Origin: Natrinema sp. HArc-T2
Lineage (GTDB): Archaea; Halobacteriota; Halobacteria; Halobacteriales; Natrialbaceae
Assembly: GCF_041821085.1 (NCBI RefSeq)
Contig: NZ_JBGUAZ010000001.1
Span: 434,001 to 498,000, forward strand
DNA length: 64,000 nt
Direction of reading: 5' to 3'
Part shown: one piece after another, positions 41,442 through 49,567 of the stretch
Layout of the letters: the number at the start of each line of letters is the position of its first letter
Numbering within the stretch: position 1 is the stretch's first letter
The notes under the pieces: model-generated
Database searches by the model: none
The model's input: the letters and a program-made list of their open reading frames with translations, nothing else
Told to the model about the DNA's origin: nothing
Made by a program: the position numbers and the translations under genes

Positions 41442-42560
41442 CTACTCGTCGACCTGGGTCGCCTCGAGTCCGCCCTCGCCGACGCGCTTGGCCCGGAGGT
41501 ATCGCGCCCGATAACGGTTCGCGCCGTCGTAGACGTCGGCCTCGCGGATCTCATCAGTACGGCCCTCGGCGACGGCGTCGATCAGCTCCTCGAGTTGGTT
41601 GAGTTCGCTGGTCGTGAGCTCGAGTTCGTAGGTGTGTTCCTCCTCGGACTCGAGGATGGCCCACTTGCGGGCGGCTGCGACGACGAGCGAGCAGGGTTCC
41701 CGACAGGGGAACGGCCCATCGCCACCGTCGACGTCCAAGTCGTCGTCTTCGTCGTATTCCCACTCTCGGCGGCGGAGACACTGCGAGTCGACACAGCAGG
41801 CTTCTGCCATCCAGTCGACGGCCTCGCGCGGGAGTTCGTCGATCACGTCGTAGATACCGGTCTGTCGCTCGGCGGTCTCGGTCCAGTGATCGATATCCAG
41901 ATTCCCGCGCAGTTCGCGGTGCCAGTTGGCGATCGTCGCGGGATAGAGAAAGCCGATCGTCTCGACGAGTTCCGCACCCGAGAGACCGGTAAACGCCCAG
42001 CCCGAGACGAGTGTGGGCGCGGTTTTCAGCGGTCGGTAGCGACCGTCCTCGTCGTAAGTCGCGATGTCCCGGGCGTCACGCGGGTCGTCGTAAACCTCGA
42101 GGTCGACAAGGTCGCTGTCGGCGTCGTCGACGTGCCAGAGGTCGTAGACGCGCTCGCCATCGGGATCGTCGACATCGACGAAGCGGACCGTGATCGACAG
42201 TTGGCCCCACTGCCGGTCGATGCCGTTTCGGAGCGCGTCGTACCGTGTCGGCACTGCGAGGCCCTCGGTCGTGTGCTCGTCGGCGTCCGGGAGCGGTGCG
42301 TGCTCGCACCACCGGAGGAACGCACGCCGGGCAGTGCCCTCTCCGCCGACGGTCTCCTGCCAGTAGCGCCAGTTGGTGACGTACTCCTCACAGGTCTCGA
42401 GTGTCTCCCGAAGGGCGGCCTCATCGAGGCCGTGCCACTCGTTGTCGGGCGTCTCGAGGGAGTAGTCGCCGTCAGTTTCGGCGATTCGGAGGCCGTCGAA
42501 CGAAATGCCATCCGACGCGCGCTCGAGCAGCGTCTCGAGGTCGTCGCTCGAAATCGTCAC
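41442..42560 (-). CDS. DR2241-family protein, possible Fe-S protein of cobalamin pathway
   Basis: This 372-aa protein starts at GTG three bases after the cbiX stop, so the two are cotranscribed. A cysteine-rich region, AEACCVDSQCLRRRE then PCREPCSLVV, could hold an Fe-S cluster. Proteins of this family are found beside cbiX in haloarchaea and Deinococcus, suggesting a role in cobalt insertion or corrin ring chemistry, which is inference. It is convergent with the membrane protein gene upstream of it. Confidence 0.78.
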   Translation of the reverse strand: MTISSDDLETLLERASDGISFDGLRIAETDGDYSLETPDNEWHGLDEAALRETLETCEEYVTNWRYWQETVGGEGTARRAFLRWCEHAPLPDADEHTTEGLAVPTRYDALRNGIDRQWGQLSITVRFVDVDDPDGERVYDLWHVDDADSDLVDLEVYDDPRDARDIATYDEDGRYRPLKTAPTLVSGWAFTGLSGAELVETIGFLYPATIANWHRELRGNLDIDHWTETAERQTGIYDVIDELPREAVDWMAEACCVDSQCLRRREWEYDEDDDLDVDGGDGPFPCREPCSLVVAAARKWAILESEEEHTYELELTTSELNQLEELIDAVAEGRTDEIREADVYDGANRYRARYLRAKRVGEGGLEATQVDE

Positions 42561-42563
42561 GTG

Positions 42564-43469
42564 TCAGTCACCCGCGCCCGTTCCCGCGCTCGGTTCGTGG
42601 TCGGCGTCGGCGACCGATCCGGCGAGATCGCGGACCGTCTCGCGAGCGTCGCCGATGTCGGCCCCGGCGTCGGTCGCCCGCTCGAGGACGACGTCGGCCA
42701 TGAGGGCTTCGGTGCCGACGGCACCGGTGTACCAGATTCGGTGGCCATCGACCTCGGCAGGCACGTCCCAGCCGAGCCGGTAGTCCTCGGTCAGTCCCAT
42801 GTCTTCGGGAATGTCCTCTTGGGTGTGGTAGCCATCGGCGATAAACAGCGGGACGACGACGATGTCGTCGCTCTCGAAGTAGTCCGTGACGTCGTCGACT
42901 TCGGGTTCTTCGTCCATGAACAGCGCCTCGACCTCGTCGAAGCGGTCGCGATCGCGGATGCGTTCGCTGTGGTACTCGATGGCCTTCGCGGAGTTTTCGT
43001 TGCGCTCGGTCCCGTGGCCAACCACCGACAGGCCGACGCCCTCACCCACGTCCGGGTCCTCCATCGCGGTTTCGGCCCGCTGGACGATCACGTCCGTCAT
43101 CGCGTCGTGGGTGCCGACCGGCCCACAGTAATGGATGGTCTTGCCGACGTCGTCGGCCTCGAGCGTGGCCTGTGAGGCGCTGGTGCCGTCCGAATCCCAC
43201 TTTTCTGGGTCCCAGTCGTCTAAGCGCAGTTCCCGCGGGATCACCTGCTCGGTAAAATACCCCTCGCTGATAAAGAGTGGAACGACGAACACCTCGTCGG
43301 CCTCGAGCGTGCGGACCACTTCGCGGAAGTGTGGTTCTTCCTTCCAGAACGCCTCGCGGACCTCGTCGAACGCGCCCGTCTCGCGGATCGTATCCGCGTG
43401 GGCGTAGGTCGGATCCGAAGCGTCCGGATTCAGGTGCGATCCGTGTGCCGCGATGACCAGCGCTTGCAT
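42564..43469 (-). CDS. cbiX: sirohydrochlorin cobaltochelatase CbiX
   Basis: This 301-aa enzyme inserts Co2+ into sirohydrochlorin in anaerobic-type cobalamin synthesis. It is the long, two-domain form: metal-binding His motifs are AAHGSHLNP and VVPLFISEGYFTEQVIP in the first half, GHGTERNEN and VVPLFIADGYHTQEDIP in the second. It leads a two-gene unit with the DR2241-like protein. Confidence 0.92.
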   Translation of the reverse strand: MQALVIAAHGSHLNPDASDPTYAHADTIRETGAFDEVREAFWKEEPHFREVVRTLEADEVFVVPLFISEGYFTEQVIPRELRLDDWDPEKWDSDGTSASQATLEADDVGKTIHYCGPVGTHDAMTDVIVQRAETAMEDPDVGEGVGLSVVGHGTERNENSAKAIEYHSERIRDRDRFDEVEALFMDEEPEVDDVTDYFESDDIVVVPLFIADGYHTQEDIPEDMGLTEDYRLGWDVPAEVDGHRIWYTGAVGTEALMADVVLERATDAGADIGDARETVRDLAGSVADADHEPSAGTGAGD

Positions 43470-44976: not shown

Positions 44977-46755
44977 TTATTGTCTGATACGGAGCCGGTC
45001 CCGATCGTCGTACCGAAAGCCGGCGTCTTCGAACGCCGCTCGGGCCGCACGGACGTTCACTTCACCATCAGTTCCCAGAAACGGCGTTTCGGGGTCCTGA
45101 CCGTTCCACGTGAGGCTGTCGGGGACCCACTGCTCGGTAACTGGTGTCGCAACCGGTCGTGCATACCCGTGAAAGACGGTCTCAGCAAGCCACTCCTTGT
45201 CGATCAACTGTGCGATGACCCGCCTGAATCGGGGGTTCCCAAACGGTGCCTTCCGCGTGTTGAATCCAAGGAAATAAAACGTCCACGACGGTGACTCGAG
45301 TCGCTGCTGTCCGTCTGTCTTGTCGACAGTCTCGATGAGTCTCGTATCAAGAGCCGTACTCGTGACGTCGGCAGTGCCGTTTCCGACAGCATCGATCGCC
45401 GTTTCCGGGTTCGGTGGGACCTCGATCACACACTCGTCGACGGTCGGTGCCGGCTGCTCACTGCCGGACCGGAGCGTAAAGTGACCGTCGAACCGCTCGA
45501 GTCTGAGTTGATCGCCCTCGGTTCGATTTACATACTGGTAGGGGCCGCTCCCGACCGGCCGAATGTTGTTCGTGACGACCGCCGTCGTGGTGCCCTGCGA
45601 GAGCGCACCACCGCCCAGTCCCATCGGGCTCTCTGACCGCTCACGCCAGATGTGTGCGGGCAGTATCGGGACGAGGAGGGCGCGTTCGCCGACCGCCTGC
45701 CCCGCATCGACGGTAAACTCGAGACGATCGCGGCTCCGAACGTCGATCGCCTCGACGGCGTCGATCTGTCCGCGAAAGCGGGGTGCAGGAACGACCCGGT
45801 CGTCATCGTCACCGGACATGTCTGCGAGAAACTGGTAGGTGAACTCGACATCGGCGGCGGTCACCGGCTCGCCGTCGTGAAACGCACAGCCGTTTCGAAG
45901 GCGAACGTCGAGCGTCGCCCCGTGCCACTCCCACGACTCCGCGAGCCACGGTTGGACCTCCCCGGTTGGGTCGTCAGTCGCCAGCGAGTCGTAGAGTAAC
46001 TGGGTGATCGTTCCGCGACCACGATAGTCGGAAGCCAGCGGGTTGAGGTTTTTCGTCGGTCGGCTATCCGTGTGGGCGGCGCGCAGCGTCCTAACGCCCG
46101 CCGCAGGCTCGAGTCCGAGATAGCCACTCCGGGTCGCGAGATGACCGTCAGCCCAGCCGGTGAACCGATCCGTTCTGACGACGCGGTGTTCCTCGGGAAT
46201 ACAGATCGGGACGAACGGCTGGTCGCGTGCGATCGCCTCGAGCGCGCTCGTGACGGCGTCGCGCCGATCGTTCCCGTCGGCGTGGCGTTGCTTCTCGAGC
46301 AGGTCGTCGACGGCCAGGTTGGTGTAGCCAAACGGGTTCTGCCAGCCCGATTCGTCGATATACAGCGAGTGTAACGCCTCGTAGAGGAAGTCGGGATCGG
46401 TCCCACCCGGATGTCGACCGATACAGATGTCGAACTCGTGATCGTACAGCACTGCTCGGTTGAAGTCGATCCCGGAGCGGATGTCGAACGAGACATCGAT
46501 CCCGACCGTTGTGAGGATCTGCTCGAGTTCGTTTGCGATCCGGATACTTTCTCTGTCACTGTCAGCAGGGAGGGTGGTGACCGTCAGCGAGAGCTGTTTG
46601 ATATTGCGTTTCGTAACGAGATTCCGGAGTCGGCTCACACAGCCGCTAGTCGAGACCGTCAGACCAGCCGTCGCTGCCAGCGCAGCCCGACGACTGGGAC
46701 CGGTGCCGTCGGTGGCTGCGCTGTTTGATTCTGGGTCGGCCCGTCCTCCGTTCAT
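44977..46755 (-). CDS. family-5 solute-binding lipoprotein, circularly permuted (SBP1)
   Basis: This 592-aa protein has a Tat-type SRRAALAATAG signal and a lipobox Cys39. Residues about 54-215 match the C-terminal part of canonical SBP_bac_5 proteins: LSLTVTTLPADSDRESI, GIDVSF, GGTDPDFLYEALHS, GYTNLAVDDLLEKQR and FVPICIPEE. Residues about 225-592 match the N-terminal part (LNPL at 237-240, VQPWLAESWEW, FHDGEPVTAADV, PVGSGPYQY, FRRVIAQLIDKEWL) and end at AAFEDAGFRYDDRDRL. The order is inverted relative to the family, a circular permutation shared with its paralogue at 47750-49537. No permease or ATPase gene is near. Ligand unknown, perhaps peptide-like. Confidence 0.88.
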   Translation of the reverse strand: MNGGRADPESNSAATDGTGPSRRAALAATAGLTVSTSGCVSRLRNLVTKRNIKQLSLTVTTLPADSDRESIRIANELEQILTTVGIDVSFDIRSGIDFNRAVLYDHEFDICIGRHPGGTDPDFLYEALHSLYIDESGWQNPFGYTNLAVDDLLEKQRHADGNDRRDAVTSALEAIARDQPFVPICIPEEHRVVRTDRFTGWADGHLATRSGYLGLEPAAGVRTLRAAHTDSRPTKNLNPLASDYRGRGTITQLLYDSLATDDPTGEVQPWLAESWEWHGATLDVRLRNGCAFHDGEPVTAADVEFTYQFLADMSGDDDDRVVPAPRFRGQIDAVEAIDVRSRDRLEFTVDAGQAVGERALLVPILPAHIWRERSESPMGLGGGALSQGTTTAVVTNNIRPVGSGPYQYVNRTEGDQLRLERFDGHFTLRSGSEQPAPTVDECVIEVPPNPETAIDAVGNGTADVTSTALDTRLIETVDKTDGQQRLESPSWTFYFLGFNTRKAPFGNPRFRRVIAQLIDKEWLAETVFHGYARPVATPVTEQWVPDSLTWNGQDPETPFLGTDGEVNVRAARAAFEDAGFRYDDRDRLRIRQ

Positions 46756-46785
46756 GTTGTCTGTCTACCATGATTGTCCGCCAGC

Positions 46786-46799
46786 ATATAACAGTATTG
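46786..46799 (-). promoter_or_regulatory. promoter motif of SBP1
   Basis: On the minus strand this reads CAATACTGTTATAT, ending 31 nt before the start codon. The TTATAT part is a TATA box. The same 14-mer with one change precedes SBP2 at identical spacing. Confidence 0.7.
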
Positions 46800-46892
46800 T
46801 GCTCACGTGGCTCGCGCGTCGGTCAGAGAGTTGGCTGTTTTGACGCTTTCAGCACGATATGTCTCGCCATCATAGACCGTGAAACCGGACGA

Positions 46893-47744
46893 TTACTCCT
46901 GTTTTTGGGGCCAGGGCAGCCGATCGGCGAACTGCTCTGAAAGCTCCGCGACCGACCAGCGGTCGACGAGTCGATCCGAGAGGTCGACACAGGCCGCTGC
47001 GAGCATCGTGCCTGCAGCGACGTCGATTCCCCAGTGGATGCCGAGATACATCGTCGAAATCGCGACGCTTACCGCCAGTACGACCGCGATGAGGTGCCAC
47101 TTCGGGAATTCCGACCGCGTCTTCCATGCGAACGCCGCGACGGTCGCCGACATCGAGGTGTGAAGCGATGGGAAGACATTGGTGCTAGCATTGACCTCGC
47201 TTGTGAGCCACTGATATTGTGGATTAGTTTCATACAGCATTCGACCAGCGAATTCGGCGGGCATCATGTTCCGGGGGCCGTACGCGATCACGAAGATATA
47301 GAGGAGAAGACCGATCGAGTAGTTGAGCGCGTAGGCCGTCAGCAGCCGGCGGAAGATCCGAGTATCGGAGAGCGTAAAGTATGCGATAACCGGGAATATC
47401 AGCAGAAACGTGTAGCCGTAGACGTAAATAGCCGAGAAATACGCCGTCGTCTCCGGTGTCTGGATCGACTGAAAGATCAGGATTAACTCTCCCTCGAGGT
47501 CGTAAAACGCCCCAGAGAGATGGAACCCGATCTGTCGCGACAGCTCAGGCGCGGTCTGTCTGGCGACCCGGTTGATCAGTAACACACAGAGTAACACGGC
47601 GATCACCGGGGCGGCAGTCCTGAGTCGGCTTCGCCACTCCGAGCGCGTCCGAGCGAGGCGCTCACGGCCGATGAAAACGACGACTGACACCGGCACCAGT
47701 ATCGAGATGACGAGAGCGAGCTGCGTCAACACCTCAGCGAGCAT
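46893..47744 (-). CDS. PAP2-superfamily membrane phosphatase (AUR1/inositol-phosphotransferase-like)
   Basis: This 283-aa polytopic protein has about six helices. The phosphatase motifs are YGPRN near the middle, FPSLHTSMSA, and STMYLGIHWGIDVAAG with the catalytic His and Asp. The arrangement resembles the PAP2_3 subgroup, which acts on lipid-linked phosphates. It begins 5 nt after the SBP2 stop, so it is cotranscribed with that binding protein, and SBP1 follows on the same strand after its own promoter. Substrate unknown. Confidence 0.85.
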   Translation of the reverse strand: MLAEVLTQLALVISILVPVSVVVFIGRERLARTRSEWRSRLRTAAPVIAVLLCVLLINRVARQTAPELSRQIGFHLSGAFYDLEGELILIFQSIQTPETTAYFSAIYVYGYTFLLIFPVIAYFTLSDTRIFRRLLTAYALNYSIGLLLYIFVIAYGPRNMMPAEFAGRMLYETNPQYQWLTSEVNASTNVFPSLHTSMSATVAAFAWKTRSEFPKWHLIAVVLAVSVAISTMYLGIHWGIDVAAGTMLAAACVDLSDRLVDRWSVAELSEQFADRLPWPQKQE

Positions 47745-47749
47745 CGCGT

Positions 47750-49537
47750 CTAGTAGCCTCCAAGCAAGCGACCGTTATCATCGTACCGAAAGCCGGCAGT
47801 CTCGAACGCCGCTTTCGCCGCCGCCACGTTGAGTTCGCCGTTCGAGCCAAGGAACGGTGTCACCGGATCCTCGCCGTCCCACGTGAGACGGTCGGGGACC
47901 CATTCGTCTGTCACCGGCGTCGCGGTCGGGGTTGCGTGTCCATAGAAGACCTCGTCGACGATCGCTTGCTTTGGAATCAACTGCGTGACCGCACGGCGGA
48001 AGTGCGTGTTGCTGAAGGGTGCGTTTCGGACGTTGAATCCGACGTGGTAGAACGTCCGCGAGGGGTGGTGTAACTGCTCGATGTCCGTGGATTCGGGGAC
48101 CGCATCTAGCGTATTGGCGTCAAGTGCCGACGCCGTCAGGTCAGCGTTGCCATCAACCACCTGTCTGATCGTCGTCTCACTGTTGGGAGCGATATCAAAC
48201 CGAAGCTCCTCGACGGATGGACTGGGAAGTTCGATATCGTCTCGGAGCGTGAAGTGATCGTCAAACTGTGTGAGGACGAGCTGATCATCCTCTGTCCGAC
48301 TCTCGAACTGGAACGGTCCACTGCCGATCGGCGGAATGTGATCGCCCGTCGCAGCGATCCACCGTCCCTGTGGTGCAGTAAACTCGCCATCGGCTGCACG
48401 CTGGTCGACAAGCTCACGCCAGAAGTGTTTCGGCAGGATCGGCACAGTCAGTGCCCGTTTGCCGACCACTCGATTCCCATTCATCGAGAACGTCAGTTCG
48501 TACTCGCCGTCGACCGTAATCCGGTCGACCACGTCGATGTGGCTCTGATATCGCGGTGCCGGCGAGGGTGTTGGCGCTCGTCCGAGTGACGTATCTTCGA
48601 GGAACCGGTAGGTAAAGGCGACGTCCTCGGCGGTTAGCCGTTCACCATCGTGGAACCGACAGTCTTCGTGGAGCGAGACCGTCGCGGTCAGCGTCGGGCC
48701 CTGCTCGTCGGTCGGGTTCGCCTCCGCCCACGTTATGTTGTCCTTGGCAAGCCAGGGCTGTACCTCGCCCTCGTGGACGGTTCCCAGCGAGTCATAGAGC
48801 AGGTCGATCATCGTGTCCCGCTCTCGCATCGTTGCCGATAGTGGGTTGAGGTTACTCGTTGGACGAGCATCCGTTTTGAGCGCGAGCAACTCGTTGCCAT
48901 CGCCGGTCGACTCGGGCTCGAGATAGCCGTGGCGAGTCGTGAGATTGGCCTCGTCCCAGCCGTCGAAGCGGTCCGTACTGGCGACGCGATACTCGTCGGG
49001 CCGACAGATCGGTTCGAAGGGTTTGGACTCTGCGAGCGATCTCAACACCGACTGGACGAGCCGCTTTCGTTGCTCTCCTTTGGCTCGCCGCTGGTCCTCA
49101 AGCAGCGTATCGAAGACCATGTTGGTGAACCCGAAGGGGTTCTGCCAGCCGGCTTCGGTGGCGAACGAGGAGTGGAGCATCTCATAGAGGAAATCGGGGT
49201 CGTATCCGGCAGGATGATGGCCGACGTAGAGGTCGAAATCGTGCTCGATCAGCACCGCTTTCAGCAACTCCGACGGCGACCGCATGTCGATCGAGACGTC
49301 GATTCCGGCCTGTTGGAGGGCCGTCTCGAGTCGACGGGCGATCTGAATGCCCTGTCTATCTGCGTCCGCCGGTACCGTGGCGATGGACAGCGACAGTTGT
49401 CCGTTGACGGCTTTCCCGACCGCGTTGCGCACGTAGTCGGTACAGCCGCTCGTGGTGAGTGCGGCCCCCGCTGCCCCGGCAGCCAGAAACGAACGACGGC
49501 TGATGCCGGTCTCAGAGGGAGTGGGGTCCCAATTCAT
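47750..49537 (-). CDS. family-5 solute-binding lipoprotein, circularly permuted (SBP2)
   Basis: This 595-aa paralogue of SBP1 has Tat motif SRRSFLAAGAAG and lipobox Cys32. Residues about 47-205 correspond to the usual C-terminal lobe segment (LSLSIATVPADADRQGI, YDPDFLYEMLHS, GFTNMVFDTLLEDQR), and residues about 218-595 to the usual N-terminal two thirds (SNLNPLSATM, VQPWLAKDN, FHDGERLTAEDVAF, PIGSGPFQF, FRRAVTQLIPKQAI), ending AAFETAGFRYDDNGRL. The ATG at 49537 is preferred; a GTG 15 nt upstream lies in the GGAGGTG that may be its ribosome binding site. It is followed after 5 nt by the PAP2 gene. Confidence 0.88.
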   Translation of the reverse strand: MNWDPTPSETGISRRSFLAAGAAGAALTTSGCTDYVRNAVGKAVNGQLSLSIATVPADADRQGIQIARRLETALQQAGIDVSIDMRSPSELLKAVLIEHDFDLYVGHHPAGYDPDFLYEMLHSSFATEAGWQNPFGFTNMVFDTLLEDQRRAKGEQRKRLVQSVLRSLAESKPFEPICRPDEYRVASTDRFDGWDEANLTTRHGYLEPESTGDGNELLALKTDARPTSNLNPLSATMRERDTMIDLLYDSLGTVHEGEVQPWLAKDNITWAEANPTDEQGPTLTATVSLHEDCRFHDGERLTAEDVAFTYRFLEDTSLGRAPTPSPAPRYQSHIDVVDRITVDGEYELTFSMNGNRVVGKRALTVPILPKHFWRELVDQRAADGEFTAPQGRWIAATGDHIPPIGSGPFQFESRTEDDQLVLTQFDDHFTLRDDIELPSPSVEELRFDIAPNSETTIRQVVDGNADLTASALDANTLDAVPESTDIEQLHHPSRTFYHVGFNVRNAPFSNTHFRRAVTQLIPKQAIVDEVFYGHATPTATPVTDEWVPDRLTWDGEDPVTPFLGSNGELNVAAAKAAFETAGFRYDDNGRLLGGY

Positions 49538-49567
49538 ATCGTTGTGTAGCACCTCCTCTCATTTGAT

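Follow-up and report, generated by a model that had tools for sequence, protein, structure and literature searches.

The window analyzed here is a 64,000-nucleotide stretch of the haloarchaeon Natrinema sp. HArc-T2 (contig NZ_JBGUAZ010000001.1, positions 434,001 to 498,000), which carries genes for two paralogous solute-binding proteins (SBPs), SBP1 and SBP2, and for a PAP2-family membrane enzyme between them. With very little doubt, both SBPs belong to family 5 (DppA/OppA-like) and carry a natural circular permutation: block A, which corresponds to the C-terminal part of DppA, comes first, and block B, which corresponds to the N-terminal part, follows it. On the minus strand the genes run in the order SBP2, PAP2 gene, SBP1, with the PAP2 gene 5 bp after SBP2. 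The two SBPs are 50% identical across 583 positions, and the start codon of SBP2 is either a GTG at 49552 or an ATG at 49537.

44977-46755, minus strand: SBP1, 592 aa, almost certainly a circularly permuted family-5 solute-binding lipoprotein (open reading frame (ORF), Pfam, block profiles)
46639-46755, minus strand: Tat-type signal and lipobox of SBP1, SRRAALAATAGLTVSTSGC, with Cys39 (sequence)
46099-46596, minus strand: SBP1 block A, residues 54-219, DppA C-terminal part (block profile)
44983-46089, minus strand: SBP1 block B, residues 223-591, DppA N-terminal part (block profile)
46893-47744, minus strand: PAP2-family membrane enzyme (PF14378/PF01569), 283 aa (Pfam, alignment, fold search)
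47750-49552, minus strand: SBP2, 600 aa, almost certainly a circularly permuted family-5 solute-binding lipoprotein (ORF, Pfam, block profiles)
49442-49552, minus strand: Tat signal and lipobox of SBP2, SRRSFLAAGAAGAALTTSGC, with Cys37 (sequence; weak TAT_signal Pfam match)
48902-49399, minus strand: SBP2 block A, residues 52-217 (block profile)
47759-48886, minus strand: SBP2 block B, residues 223-598 (block profile)

Order of the two halves

Scores on the Pfam SBP_bac_5 profile (PF00496) place both proteins in family 5 in their native order, at 161.1 bits for SBP1 and 151.4 bits for SBP2 against a curated cut-off of 32.4. In each protein the profile aligns in two stretches whose order is swapped, the best stretch covering residues 266-585 of SBP1 (profile 1-283 of 368) and residues 263-594 of SBP2 (profile 1-284 of 368). 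When the block after the signal was moved to the C-terminus and these rearranged copies were rescored, SBP1 gave a single continuous match (profile 1-358, 174.3 bits), as did SBP2 (profile 1-362, 164.4 bits), each above its native score. Solved structures show the same swap, with the later part of the query aligning to the N-terminal part of the chain and the earlier part to the C-terminal part. For 5u4o_A, query residues 399-536 align with chain residues 197-326, and query residues 67-216 with chain residues 372-516.

To determine the order of the halves across loci, we built one profile per half from permuted proteins and ran both over all ORFs of the fetched loci. The control, E. coli DppA, was scored as canonical, with the block B profile matching residues 35-368 (E 9e-57) and the block A profile matching the C-terminal part, residues 381-523 (E 2e-21). 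Among family-5 SBPs longer than 420 residues, 166 entries were permuted and 25 canonical, with no third class; these entries come from overlapping loci and are not counts of distinct genes. As both halves of DppA are recognized in opposite order, the first ~170 residues of the SBPs are not an unrelated domain. On DppA, the cut falls between precursor residues 373 and 374 for the window branch (SBP1, SBP2 and their close relatives) and for nearly all permuted proteins, directly past the AGL/AGY helix and ahead of the strand SIDLW. SBP1 and SBP2 are homologous to both parts of DppA and do not keep their canonical order, so we class them as a permuted subclass rather than as ordinary PF00496 members.

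The initial annotation, made from sequence, had proposed the permuted block order for both proteins, with the junction near residue 54 of SBP1 and ~47-52 of SBP2 and with AAFxxAGFRYDDxxRL as the C-terminus. Pfam, PDB alignments and block profiles agree on the order, the comparison of native and rearranged copies that it had put forward yields a continuous Pfam match solely after rearrangement, and both the junction and the C-terminus were placed correctly. It had also held that the arrangement is no assembly artefact, and an artefact can indeed be ruled out: end-to-end matches with the permuted arrangement are seen for close relatives from hundreds of independent genomes.

Alternatively, each protein might combine a canonical family-5 domain that lacks its C-terminal part with an unrelated or independently acquired look-alike domain at the N-terminus. 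Block A by itself is weak on PF00496 (E 0.08 and 0.008), its homology being based on family profiles and PDB matches, and a comparable possibility was raised by the authors of work on TpMglB-2, a permuted binding protein of Treponema pallidum, for their protein (PMC4990184). We consider this alternative very improbable and already contradicted. The block A profile finds the C-terminal part of DppA, as given above; the permuted haloarchaeal SBP L186 and the canonical L145 are 56% and 53% identical in the two halves, with the order swapped; trees of block A and of block B, each built separately, concur in placing L003, another permuted SBP of this genome, with L145; and the predicted fold is a single compact one.

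Predicted structure

AlphaFold2 modeled mature SBP1, with 50 homologues, as one compact body (predicted local distance difference test 90.8; predicted template modeling score 0.90), and the prediction has both halves packed together in a single SBP fold. The initial annotation had anticipated such a fold without an extra N-terminal domain. A separate N-terminal domain is ruled out by this compact model together with the DppA block-profile matches and the L145/L186 identities.

Order-dependent structure alignment reached Z 20-23 between residues 179-554 of the model and the initial ~330-360 residues of family-5 structures; the opening ~178 residues of the model were almost never aligned in sequence order, as expected of a permuted chain. 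No permuted chain was found among solved structures, the best PDB stretch of the permuted profile starting at ~168 or later. None of the Foldseek/VIA matches of the model runs through in order, an absence that is no proof.

Distribution of permuted family-5 SBPs

Within the class Halobacteria, SBP1 has a match at E <= 1e-20 in 271 of the 391 sampled genomes, and the closer matches are end to end and permuted. A survey of haloarchaeal genomes, which the initial annotation had called for, finds permuted family-5 SBPs in most of those sampled. A second, distant haloarchaeal set (25-30% identity) is permuted too and has permease and ATPase genes downstream. Permuted SBPs head full dppB-dppC-ATPase-ATPase (dppBCDF-type) operons at several haloarchaeal loci (L049, L082-L085, L087, L088, L090, L094 and L096) and likewise head complete dpp-type operons in Alphaproteobacteria. 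By genomic association only, these operons suggest that the permuted arrangement is compatible with import.

Outside Halobacteria, permuted proteins occur in archaeal genomes of family f15, which we take to be an Archaeoglobi-like group. Alphaproteobacteria with permuted SBPs include Roseomonas (WP_207415789.1), Nitratireductor (WP_113156578.1), Ketogulonicigenium (WP_013385786.1) and Maritalea (WP_117397031.1), as well as Microvirga and Neorhizobium. At a strict threshold and with the order checked, permuted SBPs were present in 2 of 198 Actinomycetota genomes and 8 of 199 Bacillota genomes. The initial annotation had treated the permutation as shared by two paralogues; both are indeed permuted, but the arrangement is not special to them, being widespread in archaea and bacteria and recurrent.

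Databases annotate the permuted proteins plainly as 'ABC transporter substrate-binding protein', and Pfam and NCBIfam models cover them only partly, with Pfam ending at position ~260-290. This truncated Pfam pattern is seen in about a quarter of the family-5 SBP genes of 12 haloarchaeal genomes.

The Archaeoglobi-like permuted SBP at L136:8730-10472 (minus strand) has a PGF-CTERM-like C-terminal membrane segment, which means that its anchor is probably C-terminal instead of a lipobox. On the Neorhizobium galegae plasmid pNgVX, a permuted SBP (L161:4944-6597, plus strand) is annotated in two pieces, a hypothetical protein and an SBP, probably reflecting a frameshift in that record. A window-type SBP of genome G353 (L117:7083-8515, plus strand) is present as two adjacent ORFs that hold block A and block B apart, probably through a frameshift or as a decaying gene. 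Apparent in-frame TGA codons in three Bacillota hits (G928, G1017 and G842) were rejected, as the match overruns the stop and the ORFs end normally.

Number of origins

For tree building, permuted sequences were first put into canonical order and then combined with canonical SBPs, and alternative groupings were compared by the approximately unbiased (AU) test on a 41-row tree. The permuted proteins are not monophyletic: forcing them into one clade costs 234 log-likelihood units (p-AU 1.3e-70). Instead, the group of L003 and L186 has canonical haloarchaeal proteins (L145 and L190-L193) as its sisters, with support of 100/99, and these sisters are 45-60% identical to group members.

L003:1468-3114, minus strand: L003, permuted SBP of the same genome (C1:198.6 kb), beside two dpp-type permease genes

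L003, with L122 and L124, represents a second, independently permuted SBP of this genome. The cut in the L003 type precedes the AGY helix, whereas other permuted proteins are cut after it; the canonical EEYLGYD|TEQAATLLEEG corresponds, in L003, to a permuted C-terminus ending in ADEYVRPN and an N-terminus containing DGPAEELIEEG. In L187, no residues separate the matched blocks where the old C-terminus meets the old N-terminus.

Grouping the window branch with the large clade of transporter-linked and bacterial permuted proteins was not rejected (p-AU 0.29), and the two may share one permutation event. Tests of joining the Archaeoglobi-like group (p 0.0014) or one Bacillota group (p 0.001) to that clade make these look like separate events. 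Their placements involve long branches, and the groups were picked after the tree was seen; we therefore take two independent origins as firmly supported, while as many as four are suggested.

A single ancient permutation would require the canonical relatives of L003 to be reversals to the ordinary order. Parsimony counts alone do not give the direction of change, one permuted clade inside the L145 subfamily is not rejected (p-AU 0.335), and neither is the union of the window branch with the main permuted clade noted above. We nevertheless regard a single origin as quite unlikely, given the log-likelihood loss on forcing all permuted proteins into one clade and the different position of the L003 cut relative to the AGY helix; a reversal would itself require a second permutation.

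A possible PAP2-family partner in the window branch

Other permuted SBPs have permease and ATPase genes alongside, and the window pair does not: no BPD_transp_1 permease was found near it, the nearest lying at C1:397256. In the window branch, a PAP2 gene usually lies directly downstream of the SBP gene, overlapping it or a few bases apart, and several genera carry the unit twice in tandem, as [SBP-PAP2][SBP-PAP2]. The PAP2 gene is immediately downstream in 73 of 109 window-clade SBP entries, some from overlapping loci. The remaining 36 are mostly the Natrinema SBP1 orthologue (32/36), which evidently lost its own PAP2 copy. This adjacency is kept in many haloarchaeal families, and the same gene pair is found on a Haloferax gibbonsii plasmid.

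The protein encoded at 46893-47744 belongs to the PAP2 superfamily, with 65.5 bits on PF14378 (cut-off 27) and the catalytic His-His-Asp; the residues concerned, H195, H237 and D241, are invariant among 42 homologues. Its structure model is confident, and the fold is nearest to inositol phosphorylceramide (IPC) synthase and Aur1 (best matches 9vj4 and 9ivc; TM-score 0.53, identity 16-18%).

Window-branch SBPs have GRHPGG-TDPD at the position of GWTGDNGDPD in DppA, so they probably bind a ligand other than a plain dipeptide. Asp408 of the DppA motif is presumably the residue that holds the peptide amine; its column is a gap in all 16 PAP2-branch proteins, an alignment-dependent result that does not fit dipeptide binding of the DppA type. 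The window-branch SBP is probably co-transcribed with the PAP2 enzyme, and we tentatively propose, as a possibility that we still find rather doubtful, that it binds an extracytoplasmic ligand made or consumed by that enzyme.

The window SBPs could instead serve an ABC importer encoded elsewhere in the genome, with the PAP2 neighbor functionally unrelated. Orphan SBPs that work with a distant permease exist, and this genome has two dpp-like permease pairs; such an arrangement comes fairly close to an even chance. It does not readily account for the tight spacing or overlap of the SBP and PAP2 genes across haloarchaeal families, their joint presence on the Haloferax plasmid, or the loss in this branch of the GWTGDNGDPD pattern with its presumed amine anchor.

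Elsewhere in the window, at 41442-43469 (minus strand), a CbiX chelatase adjoins a DR2241/Fer4_23 protein; the pair is of an ordinary kind, related to cobalamin or siroheme.

A model for the permuted SBPs

In the usual path to a circular permutation, a gene is duplicated in tandem, the copies fuse in frame and the two ends are then trimmed. This route probably operated here as well, at least twice in family 5 and at nearly the same loop. We found no duplication relics in the form of B-A-B proteins, the long ORFs merely carrying over-extended N-termini. By computation, the chain of SBP1 and SBP2 starts at the strand after DppA residue 373, continues to the old C-terminus, passes through a short linker to the old N-terminus and ends shortly past the AGY helix. 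Each SBP would be an ordinary venus-flytrap binding protein, tethered on the outside of the membrane through its Tat-exported, lipidated N-terminus. With that N-terminus in the second lobe (domain III) rather than in domain I, the tether would hold the opposite lobe. The window branch may have left its importer behind, and its SBP may now act as binding partner to an Aur1-like membrane enzyme of the PAP2 family.

Taken together, two to four permutations at nearly one loop, in archaea and bacteria, that each moved the membrane anchor or the free terminus into the opposite lobe while the importer kept working, with one haloarchaeal branch joining an Aur1-like PAP2 enzyme, is an account to which we give an even chance. 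Weighing against the model above, besides the weak Pfam match of block A, are three points. That the new termini lie in domain III follows from published domain limits of DppA and OppA, not from coordinates. In Alphaproteobacteria, the signal peptides of permuted SBPs carry no lipobox (L157), which means that a lobe-switching tether cannot be a universal reason for permutation. The proposed functional link between SBP and PAP2 is based on gene neighborhood only.

Natural circular permutations are rarely found alongside close unpermuted sisters. As the canonical L145 and L190 are ~55% identical to the permuted L186, the steps, reversibility and cost of a permutation become directly testable. 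Repeated permutation at nearly one site suggests selection on the position of the chain end or anchor, a question that was raised and left open for TpMglB-2 (PMC4990184).

Comparison with known systems

SBP1 and SBP2 resemble the SBP_bac_5, or cluster C, proteins (E. coli DppA, OppA and NikA; PF00496) in the homology of their halves and in predicted fold, and other permuted members likewise sit in dpp operons. They differ in their swapped halves, with termini at DppA 373/374, and the window branch further lacks a permease neighbor and the Asp408-type motif. The enzyme of the neighboring gene shares the PAP2_3 Pfam match and the H-H-D residues of Aur1 and IPC synthase-like enzymes and resembles them in fold, but it is only 16-18% identical to them and its gene is linked to an SBP gene.

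TpMglB-2 is a Type I sugar-binding protein whose natural circular permutation was established by crystallography; it has relatives in Gram-positive bacteria, and its authors proposed a class 'Type Ic / Cluster Bc' (PMC4990184). Like the proteins described here, it is a tethered, permuted ABC-type binding protein spread over several bacterial groups (PMC4990184). Unlike them, it belongs to Type I (cluster B), is cut in the N lobe and has a poorly conserved permuted part (PMC4990184); SBP1 and SBP2 are permuted yet homologous to family 5, which places them outside Cluster Bc. No repeated origin was described for TpMglB-2 (PMC4990184), whereas family 5 has multiple origins and canonical sisters. 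The initial annotation knew of no described example. This stands for family 5, where we found no description in the literature searched, most subscription journals being outside its reach; it does not stand for binding proteins in general, given TpMglB-2 in another class (PMC4990184). A naturally permuted binding protein is thus already on record, and what appears new here is the occurrence in family 5, with its recurrence and its close unpermuted sisters standing out as unusual.

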